This document shows, in pieces, positions 57,063 to 64,000 of a DNA stretch of 64,000 bases. Every line of letters starts with the position of its first letter. Position 1 is the stretch's first letter. A program made the translations under genes and the position numbers. The stretch is from NCBI GenBank assembly GCA_010356995.1, contig ML996698.1, positions 493,923 to 557,922 on the forward strand, in the 5' to 3' direction. The DNA is from Trichodelitschia bisporula. Its lineage: Eukaryota; Ascomycota; Dothideomycetes; Phaeotrichales; Phaeotrichaceae. Under the pieces are notes generated by a model that had not been told where the DNA came from, ran no database searches, and saw only the letters and a list, made by a program, of their open reading frames with translations.

Positions 57063-59149
57063 TGGAGGAGCTGAGGTATGTTCGTGCGGGGGAGAGTCGA
57101 GAGGGGGAGGATGGCTTTATGCGGGATGTAGTGGAGAGTGGGGAGGAGGGGAATGGGAAGGAAGGGCCCGACGTAGGAGCAGGCCACATACTGTGGGAGG
57201 ACCCGGGAGTGGATGGGAGTCAGCGATAAGGAAGATGTTCAAAGAATGGTTGACTAGTGGACCTGATCCAGGGATGGCCATTTGTTTTGGCGGGATATGC
57301 TCTACCCGATGCGGGGGAGCGACAGCTAGTTGGGGATGGAGGGAAGGGAGGACCTAGGGCAGGGCAAGCTGTGGGCGCGGTGTTGAGGGTACGGTGACGA
57401 CAGTGAGCCGGCGGAATAATGACTTAGCTTCACGGCCAAACACGGCTACCGGAACGTCTAGGGATGGGCAACGTGAGCGACGTGAGCGATCGTGGGCAAC
57501 GTGATAAGGCAGAGATAACACAGAAGAGAGTGGAAGGGGCATCGCATGAGAGAACACGGGGTAATGAATGGAACTGGAGTGGGAAGCAGCGGATACAATT
57601 CTTCTGCAGACGACGGTGATGTGAAGTATGGTAGAAGATTTGGAAGAGTATGGATGAGTTCGATAGACTACCATTTTTTTGAAGATGCGAAGCTGATTGA
57701 TGTTCCATGAGCAATGAGATTGTCACGATATCTCTGATAATGGACGCGGGTATTGACGGGGTAGATTGATGTTGCGTAGAAAACAGTTTGGCAGCTGTCG
57801 TGATGATGACGATGGAGGTTGGTGTTTTAGCCAGAGTCTGGGCGGTAACACATCCCCTTTGAGATCCCTCCCCCTCGCGTGGACCGTGGACCATACCAGA
57901 TATTGTAGTACTTACCGGTACAGTCCCGCTTATTAGGGGAAAGTGTTCGACTCCGCTCTGGAGCCAAGAGATATGCGGTTGGTGAAGATGTGGATGGGGA
58001 TGGAGATCTGTGGAGCTTGATTGTGTGGAGACGAAAGATGGGAGGTCCGTTGATTGAAGAAGGGGAAATACTGTAGTTCTAGTATATTAGACGCTTTCCC
58101 CATCCCTTCTCATCACCAGCATCACCTTATGTCCATCCCACCCCCATCTCTTCACTAATGCTCCTGCCACTCTGCCATTCTGCCACTCCAATTGGCACTC
58201 ATTCTCTTCGTTCCACGTCGAAGCTCACCGTCAAGCCTGGACTGGCCTGGCCCTCGGAGATGCATCATTCCGTTGTCTGCCGAGGGGGGGCACAGTTAAG
58301 CAGTCAGGCTCAAGGCGGCTGATCAGCAGCAAGCATACTACCTTCGTAGTTCTTCTATCCATCCCATCACAAACCCCATCCCATCCCATCCCATCACGTC
58401 CCCGTCTCCCCTTCTCCCTCCCTGCATCCCCGTAAACAACAGCGAAGCAAAAGGCTCGCAAGATGGCTCACAAGAAGACAGGGCTATGCCGCAACGTTGC
58501 GCCCGACATTACTATGGTAGTAGGCCTGTCAAACGCCCGAGGATATCTGCAGCATTCCGCATCTATCGGTCTGTCTACCTTGTCCTCGGTGCCCCCTCCC
58601 TTTCCCTTCTGCATCTTGCCTCCTGCAGTCTCTTTCGGCTGCAAGGCGTCGTCCTCGTCCTCGCATATCAATCAATCAATCAAAGTCATCTAGCGAAGGC
58701 AAGCAAAAAAGGCAATCGAAGGCACGCACTCAAGTCCCCCGTCCGCGTAACACCTCCGTTCTCAAATAAAAACTCACCTTCCCCATCTCCGCACCTCTCG
58801 CTTTTCCCCGTCACCCCGCAACCTCCTCCCGCAGCTCAATCTCCTCCCCTTTCCCTTCCCCTCCACAAAAAAAAAATAAGAACGAGGAATGAGGCGCCCA
58901 TCGCCTACCCACCCACGCCCTCCCGCTAGGAAAATAAGATAGGAAATAAACCTTCCATTGCACCACTGCCGCCCCCCCCCTCAGCCCAGCCCCCCTCCAA
59001 AAGTCCCAAACCCTGTCCGAATCGCGTACGCGTCCACCCGCCGAGTACATAAACCCCGAACGCGCCGCAAACAACCTCGTCCCCCCCCCCATTCCCCGAA
59101 AACCCACCCCAAAACCTAACCCAAAAACCACAACCCTTAAAACGCAACG
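57063..59149. other. Divergent intergenic, no gene seen
   Basis: About 2.1 kb between the permease start and the peroxiredoxin start; both promoters should be here. A short (CCCAT)n run lies at about 58375-58396. The last ~400 bases are C/A-rich leader. Overlapping frames have no domains. Confidence 0.45.
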
Positions 59150-59954
59150 ATGGTAGAGCTCCGCAAGCGCAAAACCCCACCTCCCGCGCCGACGCGCCCA
59201 ACCCGCACCAAGAAAACCGCCGCCCCGGCCGCCGCAAAAGCTGACGCAAAAGCTGACGCAAAGCCGCGCGCCGGCCGCGTCACCAAAGCTAAAGAGAAAG
59301 TATCCAAGGCTGCGAGCAAGGCCGCGGCCGCCGTGACAGGCAAGACCGACGGCAAGGAAGAAGAGGAGAAGGCTGCAGAGGCGGCCCCGGATGCCCCCGC
59401 GGCTGTGGCTTCGCCGACCGGCCCCCCGAAAGTCGGAGATGTGATCTCGCTCGAAAGCTTCGGCGGCGAGGTAGAAACGCATGAGGGTACAAAGGTCACG
59501 CTCGCGCAGCTGGTGGAGGAGAGCAAGGCGGGTGTTGTGCTGTTTACGTATCCGAAGGCGAGCACGCCGGGTTGTGAGTTTGCAACCCCCCTATGCTTCG
59601 AATGGTGAAAAATGCTAATCAAAGGTAGGCACGACACAAGCCTGCGCCTTCCGTGACCAGTACGAGCCGCTCACGGCGACGGGACTCGCCATTTACGGGC
59701 TCAGCGGGGATTCGCCCAAGGCGAACACAACCTTCAGGACGAAGCATGGGTTTCCGTACCCGTTGCTGTGTGATCCGGGGTATGGGCTTATTGGCGCCAT
59801 TGGGTTGCAGCAGGTTGGCGCGAAGAAGACGAAGAGGGGCGTTTTTGTCGTGGGTAAGGGGGGCAAGGTTCTTGCGGCTGAGCCGGGTGGCCCCCTGCCT
59901 ACGGTGGAGGTGGTGAAGAAGGTTGTGGCGGGGATGGAGAATGGGGAGGCTTAG
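59150..59954 (+). CDS. PrxQ/BCP-type thioredoxin peroxidase (Dot5-like)
   Basis: Thiol peroxidase of the BCP/PrxQ class that reduces hydroperoxides using thioredoxin. The yeast counterpart Dot5 is nuclear. Two exons, 59150-59573 and 59629-59954 (55-nt intron), give 249 aa. The first ~85 residues are Lys/Ala/Pro-rich and highly basic (LRKRKTPPPAPTRPTRTKK), like a nuclear or chromatin-associated tail. The catalytic domain reads [23 protein letters not shown]: the peroxidatic Cys codon is split by the intron (T|GC), and the resolving Cys lies five residues downstream, the atypical 2-Cys PrxQ arrangement. YGLSGDSPKANTTFRTKHG and the PLLCDPGYGLIGAIG block complete the fold. The acceptor was chosen at gtag (59628) because it alone restores PGCTTQAC. 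Confidence 0.93.
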
Positions 59955-60893: not shown

Positions 60894-60982
60894 ACCCGCA
60901 GCAGTGAGTCGAACACTGGACTTGGAGATAAGTCGCGCTATCAACGCTGCAATCTCCCACTCTACCACTGAGTTACTACGGG
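60894..60982 (-). tRNA. tRNA-Cys (GCA) with 17-nt intron
   Basis: The minus strand folds as a complete tRNA. The acceptor stem is CCCGTAG with CTGCGGG (one G-U pair). The D arm is ACTC/GAGT with loop AGTGGTA. The anticodon stem is GGAGA/TCTCC. The T arm is CAGTG/CACTG with loop TTCGACT, and the variable loop has 5 nt. The anticodon loop reads TT-GCA-G before a 17-nt insertion (60946-60930) and A after it, so the intron sits at the canonical 37/38 position. The discriminator base is T (60894), the identity element of tRNA-Cys. The internal promoter B box (GTTCGACTC) is good; the A box (TAACTCAGTGG) is slightly off consensus. Confidence 0.93.
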
Positions 60983-61702: not shown

Positions 61703-64000
61703 CTATGCATGCAATCGCGGACTCTCTACCACCCGACTCCCTCGCGACCCAGTCTCCACTCGACTCCCCGGCCTCGTCCCCGCCCCACTTCTCCTCCTCT
61801 CACTCCTAGAAGTTCGCTGCCAAAACCTCCAGGAACACCCCCCCTCCGCCTCAGGTGGCTCATCCACCGCCCTCCTCGCCCTCTTACTGAAATTGGTCCA
61901 CAAAGGAAAAACACACCCCACCGCCACCGTGGCAACTATAACCCCATAACTCCGCTCATACGCCGGCGGACTGCTCGAACTCGAAATCGCATACGTAATC
62001 GGCGGAAAAACAGCACCGCCACTAATCGCCGCCGCCAGCAGGGCACTTCCATCCTTCGTCCACCGCCCCAAGCCCCGCAAACTCGTCGCGTACAGGATGC
62101 TGAAGATCGGGCCCTCGGCCGCGTAGAGTAGCATGAGCACGACCTCGGTCTGCGGCCCCCGGGGCCGCGTCGCGAGGATAGAGAGGACGAGCAGCGCGGC
62201 GTAGGACGCGAATAGTACGTATCGTGGCTTGACAAGTGTGCATAGCGCGGCGGCGATGAAGCGGCCCCCCGTGAACACGCTGTGTCCGATGACGCCCGTG
62301 TCGGACTTTTCGCCGCGCTGGGTCCGCGGGCCGAGAAGATACGCGATGCCCGAGACCGAGACGCTCTCCTGCGCGCCGAGGTAGCAGAACTGCGCGATTA
62401 CGCCGAGAGCAAGCGTAACGAAGACGACGCGCGTGCGGTAGCCGCCCGGGAGAGTAATTCGCGCGAGATGGGCGTCGTCAGAGCGCGCGGAGAAGGCCTC
62501 GAGCTCGGCGTCCGTGGCTTCGGGTAGCGGGATATAGTAGTACAGCACAGCGAGGAGGACGACGATCAGTGCGATGCCGAGGTATGTCCACTGGACGTCG
62601 ACGAGGGAGGCGGTGTGCGGCTCCGCGGCGCGGAAGAGGACCTTTTGCGCGAGGAGGGGCGAGACCACGGAGCCGATTGCTTGGACGGCTTGAGCGAGTT
62701 GCAGCCGGGCTTCCATGTAGCGTGGCGGTCCGCAGAGGGCGACGAAGGGGTTGGCGGCGATTTCGAGGGAGGAGAGACCGAGACCGACGATGAAGTTGCT
62801 GACTACGAAGGCGGGAAAGGAGGTTAGGACTGCCGAGGGCCAGAAGATTAGCACGCCGCAGGCGTAGATGCAGAGCCCGATGATGAAACACGCCTTGAAG
62901 CCCCAGCGCTTGAAAACCAGCCGACCAAAGGACAGCGTGCCGGCGAAGTAAGCCGAAAAATAGGCTGAGTGGATCCCTAGTTTCTGTGCTGTGCCCATTT
63001 CCACTTTGCGCTGGAACTGCAAGTTTATCGCGTCGAGAAAGCCGTACGCAATTCCCCAGATGAAGAAGAGGATGGTGACACAGAGGTTTGGTAGTAGGCA
63101 TTCGCGCGCACTGAGCCCAATAATGCACTTCCGCCGCGGACTGATGTCCACAAAATCAAAGAATCGTTGCGGCGAGGAGCGCGATGGGGCGATATGGCTG
63201 CCACCTGTGCGCGTGCGTGCCAGCATATCCGGCGTCGTTAAGAAGTCAATCATGTCGACGGGCTCTTCTTCGACGGGCTCTTCGTCGGAGCGCTCCGCAT
63301 CGGCCTCAGTGGCCACGACGGGCCGCTTCGGCAGCTCCAGAGCGCGAGGCACTCCTGGTTGTGCATCTTGCGTAGTGACTTTCTCGCTCTCTCGCTGTGA
63401 GGAGTTTCCCGGATCGCGGAGGATGCGCGGCATGAAACGAGATACCAGTGGTTTCAATCCTGGGACGCAGGCGCACATGATGCCGACATTGACCTCGATG
63501 GCGGACCACATGTAACTCAGGGAAGCGTACCAAGCAACGTCGGTCTTGTTTCGTACGTCGGTGGCCAACTCTGGGTCTTTGCTCTGCATGTCCAAGCGGG
63601 CCGTAAGTGCTTCTTGCAGGTACGCGATGCGAATAACGTCGACAACCGCAACAAAGAAGCCGAAGCCGAAGGTAATGACAAGAATCGTTTTTTGCTTCTT
63701 GGGTAGCCGCATGCCGGTTAAAATCGGCATGGGTAAGAACAAGATGGCGAGGTCGGTGATGATGTTGACAGGTGCCGAAGATAAATACAATGTCACGATG
63801 TCCTGGCAGCGGTCCGTTTCCAGGACAGGTGTGGCAAAGGCGGCGCCCACTGGACGACACTGAAAGATGTTGAGGAAGGTGAGCGCCAGACCGGCGGCGT
63901 TGACAACCATCAGAGTTACGAGCGTGGCCCATCTGAAGATCTTTTCCGACTTGGACAAAGTCAAGTAAAAGAGGAGGATGGAGGTTTTGGTGGCCATGAG
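61703..64000 (-). CDS. Rhodopsin-like domain fused to MFS sugar transporter (5' partial)
   Basis: One open frame of at least 764 residues, cut by the window edge, so the N-terminus is missing. The first ~195 visible residues look like the fungal rhodopsin-like (SAT4/PTH11-type) integral membrane domain: ATKTSILLFYLTL, the Cys pair around FQCRP and DRCQD, TDLAILFLPMPILTGMRLPK and a span ending AIEVNVGIMCACVPGLKPL. A charged, acidic linker (about 196-300, with EEPVEEEPVD) follows. The rest is a 12-span major-facilitator domain of the FucP/glucose-galactose permease type (ILFFIWGIAYGFLDAINLQF, SAYFSAYFAGTLSFGRLVFK, LSSLEIAANPFVALCG, PIFSILYATSLRGLGRWTKD). The end is a basic tail. No intron is needed in the visible part. 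The linkage is continuous on DNA and is not an artefact of splicing choice, but RNA support for a single transcript is lacking. Confidence 0.82.
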   Translation of the reverse strand, partial: LMATKTSILLFYLTLSKSEKIFRWATLVTLMVVNAAGLALTFLNIFQCRPVGAAFATPVLETDRCQDIVTLYLSSAPVNIITDLAILFLPMPILTGMRLPKKQKTILVITFGFGFFVAVVDVIRIAYLQEALTARLDMQSKDPELATDVRNKTDVAWYASLSYMWSAIEVNVGIMCACVPGLKPLVSRFMPRILRDPGNSSQRESEKVTTQDAQPGVPRALELPKRPVVATEADAERSDEEPVEEEPVDMIDFLTTPDMLARTRTGGSHIAPSRSSPQRFFDFVDISPRRKCIIGLSARECLLPNLCVTILFFIWGIAYGFLDAINLQFQRKVEMGTAQKLGIHSAYFSAYFAGTLSFGRLVFKRWGFKACFIIGLCIYACGVLIFWPSAVLTSFPAFVVSNFIVGLGLSSLEIAANPFVALCGPPRYMEARLQLAQAVQAIGSVVSPLLAQKVLFRAAEPHTASLVDVQWTYLGIALIVVLLAVLYYYIPLPEATDAELEAFSARSDDAHLARITLPGGYRTRVVFVTLALGVIAQFCYLGAQESVSVSGIAYLLGPRTQRGEKSDTGVIGHSVFTGGRFIAAALCTLVKPRYVLFASYAALLVLSILATRPRGPQTEVVLMLLYAAEGPIFSILYATSLRGLGRWTKDGSALLAAAISGGAVFPPITYAISSSSSPPAYERSYGVIVATVAVGCVFPLWTNFSKRARRAVDEPPEAEGGCSWRFWQRTSRSERRRSGAGTRPGSRVETGSRGSRVVESPRLHA

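Follow-up and report, generated by a model that had tools for sequence, protein, structure and literature searches.

Does the end of this stretch of the Trichodelitschia bisporula genome encode one membrane protein, in which a receptor-like domain is joined to a sugar transporter, or two neighbouring genes that happen to share a reading frame? The DNA analysed, here called the window, comprises 64,000 nucleotides (C12:493923-557922), and the genome searched comprises 25.65 Mb in 30 contigs. An initial annotation had described a single frame linking a rhodopsin-like multi-span domain, through an acidic linker, to a complete major-facilitator (MFS) domain. One frame does span both domains: it runs free of stops on the minus strand, gives Pfam matches to both and extends past the window end, upstream to window position 64051 (L009:3052), for a total of 782 codons. 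The gene is truncated by the end of the window, and the exon encoding its first two helices lies outside. According to the PF20684 matches in the genome, the part of the first domain that the window lacks lies at C12:557975-558181. The predicted first exon starts at window 64352, the first ATG past an in-frame upstream stop; joined to the main frame over a 46-nt intron it reads ...SVLYNPALMATKTS..., and the PF20684 profile is thereby completed. The spliced model is 867 residues long. The features of the gene are collected in Table 1.

Table 1. Features of the gene and its standalone relative. Positions are those of the window unless a contig (C) or locus (L) is named; residues are those of the spliced model.
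Feature	Position	Strand	Basis or remark
Open frame: rhodopsin-like domain, linker and MFS domain	61703..64000	-	ORF and translation
Predicted exon 1	64352-64056	-	beyond window; precedes the 46-nt intron
Predicted 5' intron, 46 nt, GTAGGT / CTGAC / CAG	64055-64010	-	beyond window
Fungal rhodopsin (PF20684), in-window part, from inside helix 3 to end of helix 7, profile 68-237	63437..64000	-	
Interdomain linker, residues 291-402, roughly 112 residues (about 336 nt)	63101..63436	-	
Acidic core of linker, residues 334-351, 10/18 D or E	63254..63307	-	counted from translation
Complete FucP-type MFS domain, MFS_1 profile 3-344/347, residues 408-799	61910..63085	-	
Probable 3' intron, 71 nt, GTAAGA...CTGAG...CAG	61817..61887	-	prediction
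3' end of open frame (residues 808-867 plus stop), codons of non-coding character	61703..61885	-	
Standalone FHS paralogue	C9:243.8-245.4 kb, L045:4350-5927		

In the spliced model PF20684 (PTH11/SAT4) covers residues 32-290 over its full length (profile 1-237/237, E 8e-58, 196.2 bits against a Pfam cut-off of 27). The SAT4/PTH11-like identity proposed for this half is thus confirmed, but the domain is not complete inside the window, as profile positions 1-67 fall in the outside exon. The main PF20684 stretch of the gene ranks fourth among the 65 PF20684 stretches listed in the genome and, given also the full length, the receptor domain does not look decayed. Its identity to eight rhodopsin pieces from the same genome amounts to 19-26%, none of the columns of these pieces being invariant in that alignment, and it shares a cysteine pair (FQC...C) with 7 of the 8 aligned pieces. 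The top match in its own genome besides itself is C4:409297-409953, with 32% identity across 94-318. Six hydropathy segments in this half lie above the threshold of 1.25, and the missing helix 3 was placed within residues 69-126 by reading. PTH11-related receptors are described as the largest predicted GPCR class in filamentous fungi (PMC4683645), and Pth11 of M. oryzae is reported to carry a CFEM domain (PMC13308352). In the 867-residue model no Pfam match to CFEM was obtained at E 1 or better, and an unrecognised upstream exon could still hold one. In single-sequence scans, which reach close relatives only, none of 22 pattern matches between the PF20684 part and prokaryote genomes was confirmed, and the whole frame had no match among viral contigs.

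The other half contains a complete MFS domain, as first claimed, with MFS_1 matching the spliced model at E 1.6e-12 (47.5 bits against a Pfam cut-off of 33.4). The further claim of a FucP-type sugar transporter also stands up, both in sequence and in fold. TIGR00885 (fucP) is the best NCBIfam match (E 2e-45), yet falls below its equivalog cut-off (155.7 vs 280.4 bits); PRK10133 reaches 114.2 bits against a cut-off of 427, and gluP and NagP are weaker than fucP and likewise below their cut-offs. The best PDB sequence match is E. coli FucP (E 4e-31). A structure predicted for the 765-residue window fragment has a mean pLDDT of 61.6 and a pTM of 0.61; by block, pLDDT is mostly 60-90 in the MFS part and 41-65 in the receptor part, where the alignment held no relatives. 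In a fold search with this model MFS entries lead, and the top two are the FucP structures 3o7p and 3o7q (TM 0.76 by target length, rmsd 5.7-6.3, identity 26-27%). Matches in the PDB to galactokinase and SMUBP-2 (E 0.015 and worse), and one to Gemini_mov in the spliced model (E 0.05, below its own cut-off), were taken as chance.

Equivalents of FucP D46 and E135, which we take to be the residues for proton coupling, are kept at positions 323 and 413 of the window fragment and are also present in the standalone FHS paralogue. A two-row alignment of the MFS part, used as query, found 27 bacterial loci, of which 19 were aligned; these relatives have D (17) or P (2) at the first position and E (4) or Q (15) at the second. 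The equivalent of FucP N162 is N in 19/19 aligned bacterial relatives and Q in both the fused protein and the standalone paralogue, which leaves room for a substrate other than fucose. Eleven hydropathy segments of the MFS half lie above threshold, with helix 2 slightly under it; one helix was placed within residues 428-469, for 12 in all. In its FucP-like sequence, its fold and the D46/E135 equivalents, this half agrees with the FHS family (TC 2.A.1.7) of sugar:H+ symporters. The FucP domain structure is described as well represented among fungi, where RhtA of Aspergillus niger is an FHS-family transporter carrying L-rhamnose (PMC5161314). The conserved D and E equivalents, the FucP fold match and the fungal example of RhtA make it likely that the transporter half is a sugar:H+ symporter.

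The two halves could still be made as separate proteins, if the receptor came from a transcript spliced or terminated in the linker and the FHS transporter from an internal start at Met 352 or 361. The linker does contain such methionines, and the standalone paralogue begins shortly before its own first helix. However, a terminator and a promoter would then need to fit into about 336 nt, and a termination or splice site in the linker, which the initial annotation had named as the finding that would overturn a fusion, is hard to find. No stop codon lies in frame between the domains. For splicing the outcome is mixed: no strong intron was found, but 24 weak donor-acceptor pairs pass loose filters. 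A candidate combining a GTRNG donor with a loose branch site and YAG was not found entirely inside 63451-63062, while the looser scan of 63480-62900 yielded 3 pairs with GTRNG, 16 with GC and 5 with weaker GT donors, the three GTRNG pairs overrunning the linker on its helix 7 or its MFS side. Some of the pairs merely shorten the linker; others shift the frame, for example 63445-63355 (GTATCT, branch CTCAC), and these weak out-of-frame pairs would suit two separate products. As all 24 lack a strict CTRAY branch, such as the CTGAC of the accepted 5' intron, splicing within the linker is unlikely, although the weak donors carry some weight, since the standalone paralogue apparently uses a GC donor.

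Codon usage was compared over the same region with a score trained on the two domains. For the whole linker the true frame scores -0.083, better than any of the other five (-0.201 to -0.658); the six frames of five 3'-flank stretches gave values between -0.207 and -0.816. Coding support is weak in the first half of the linker, because one antisense frame (-0.067) outscores the coding frame (-0.264) there. Both linker segments examined for GC by codon position have a GC3 of 0.67, and in the first of them GC1 is higher (0.77). Random 336-nt stretches of the window, coding ones included, are open in a given frame in 1717 of 20000 cases, and stretches of the same length from the 3' flank in 37 of 1404. 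If a shared frame is given a probability of one in three, these rates leave about 1-3% for two separate genes being joined in frame by accident, the short spacing not yet considered. Linker residues 305-393 have themselves as their sole match in the genome, and two linker motifs scanned over L001-L045 occur only in loci containing the fused gene. The description of the linker as acidic applies to its core; over residues 291-402 the composition is only mildly so, with 20 D/E vs 16 K/R. Overall, a linker free of in-frame stops and of any strong intron that could be found supports the single-gene reading, and two separate proteins appear improbable.

The frame exists between 61703 and 64000 as claimed, but its stop at 61703 is doubtful, as the last 60 codons look non-coding. 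Residues 808-867 have a codon score of -1.53 in their own frame, the lowest among the segments tested, and the pattern of GC by codon position is lost over them. Splicing out 61887-61817 leads to the end ...WTNFTNF-stop and a protein of 809 amino acids; alternative donor-acceptor pairs lead to longer ends. This terminal stretch probably consists of intron, a brief final coding segment and 3' UTR, and 61703 is probably not the true stop; with the predicted 3' intron removed, the protein would have 809 residues.

Across the whole model 17 hydropathy segments lie above threshold, and two further helices placed by reading bring the count to 19. Stretches rich in K/R are found at residues 33-49 and 197-206 (four K/R each) and at 428-469 (six K/R). 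These charges fit a cytosolic location of both the receptor C-terminus and the MFS N-terminus, for which the 17-segment hydropathy alone is no proof, and the linker would then be cytosolic as well. The probable product of the gene is a single protein of 19 helices that includes a functional sugar/H+ symporter.

Within the genome, the combination was found once. The 65 PF20684 stretches are listed exon by exon, two of them from the fused gene; the scan covered the 30 that had loci. The scan was run with phmmer on 30 rhodopsin loci with about 1.5 kb flanks, giving 987 frames of at least 60 residues, against nine queries: the fused MFS domain plus, for each of eight MFS loci, its longest frame, presumed to be the MFS frame. 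No second PF20684-MFS locus was found in the 30 scanned rhodopsin loci, the MFS match occurring only at the fused gene's own locus, L013. The remaining FHS matches in the genome are the standalone gene on C9 and a single weak one on C1 (E 0.003). The standalone gene is 42% identical over the domain, has the same D, E and Q at the three FucP positions, and has no PF20684 nearby in the genome-wide list; it differs from the fused gene in having about four introns and a start codon slightly before helix 1. By eye these introns are short, and one apparently has a GC donor (GCAAGT...TAG).

Around the fused gene, a further PF20684 match (L023, C12:575128-576000) lies about 17 kb away on the same strand. 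A tRNA-Ile(GAT) was found just downstream at window 60894-60971 (-) with ARAGORN under bacterial settings, and a convergent AhpC/TSA-type gene lies at window 59141-59951 (+); it appears as two frames, only the second above the Pfam cut-off, and is probably split by an intron near 59600. Among the four flanking frames examined there was no sugar-gene neighbourhood, the two upstream frames being without a Pfam match.

The single copy found would suit a read-through fusion that arose recently in this species alone, or an assembly artefact, in either case without a selected function. We regard this as quite unlikely, however, given the intact and stop-free state of the two domains and the linker and the retained D46 and E135 equivalents. 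Entries with the PF20684-MFS domain pair may exist in the databases. The literature searched, of which coverage was partial, contained no report of such a fusion, in agreement with the earlier remark that no characterised example was known. A term search of the available text of a survey of Pth11-related receptors (PMC5526305) returned no occurrence of MFS, transporter or fusion, and one of the available text on N. crassa GPCRs (PMC4683645) returned none of MFS, one of transporter, for another protein, and four of fusion, in other senses.

The fusion is thus probably real at the gene level, and we consider it fairly probable, from what the sequence encodes, that one fungal gene specifies a natural fusion of a receptor-like domain, a linker and a FucP-type sugar:H+ symporter. 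Its product would cross the membrane with about 19 helices and be about 809 residues long, 867 at the most. The first part would be a PTH11/SAT4-type seven-helix domain with its N-terminus outside and its C-terminus in the cytosol, followed by a probably disordered, partly acidic, cytosolic linker that leads to a complete FHS (TC 2.A.1.7) symporter. Judged by its conserved residues and family, the transporter half would most likely import a monosaccharide or deoxysugar by proton symport. The most likely role of the seven-helix half would be to position or regulate the tethered transporter, or to bring an outside cue and sugar uptake together on a single protein.

What the seven-helix half contributes to such a fusion can be read in two ways. 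It may be a passive module for membrane targeting, stability or trafficking, the protein being simply a sugar transporter; we hold this tentatively, at somewhat below an even chance. The sequence carries no sign of coupling, and ligands of the PTH11 class are described as unknown and fungal GPCRs as mostly orphans (PMC13308352), which suits a passive role. On the other hand, the receptor domain is neither shortened nor a poor member of its family, and Pth11 of M. oryzae, although its ligand is unknown, is described as working through MagB and cAMP-PKA (PMC13308352). The second reading is a true transceptor, in which occupancy of, or transport by, the MFS half would alter what the seven-helix half signals, or vice versa, so that an outside cue might tune sugar uptake or transport might drive receptor signalling via the cytosolic acidic linker. 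The architecture makes this attractive, but we judge it unlikely. The topology, by our reading of the charges, permits coupling. Against this, the effector fusions cited below use retinal rhodopsins, a different family; rhodopsin-guanylyl cyclase, for one, contains a retinal rhodopsin and not a PF20684-type domain. Yeast transceptors are, to our knowledge, transporters that do without a fused receptor domain. Precedents in a wider sense do exist, as nutrient transceptors have been described in yeast (PMC5890159) and other seven-helix proteins have been described as fused to effectors (PMC4046227, PMC12291454).

A receptor fused to a transporter would, if true, be an unusual way to build nutrient sensing. 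Should a PTH11-type member indeed be linked covalently to such a transporter, the sugar carried would offer a direct and testable guess at the ligand or output of the receptor. Compared to the PTH11/SAT4 family (fungal GPCR class XIV), the protein has a full-length PF20684 domain, about seven predicted helices and the cysteine pair, and differs in having no CFEM match and a transporter attached at its C-terminus. Its likeness to E. coli FucP (3o7p/3o7q) lies in the best sequence and fold match and in the D46 and E135 equivalents; it differs in the Q for N162, in scores below the TIGR00885 and PRK10133 cut-offs and in the receptor-like domain fused on. Both it and RhtA of A. niger are fungal FucP-domain (FHS) transporters; compared by description, they differ in that none of the words rhodopsin, receptor and GPCR occurs in the main text of the RhtA paper, as available (PMC5161314). 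With yeast nutrient transceptors it may share transport and signalling in one protein, here a hypothesis drawn from the architecture (PMC5890159), and with rhodopsin-guanylyl cyclase the joining of a seven-helix sensor to an effector (PMC4046227).
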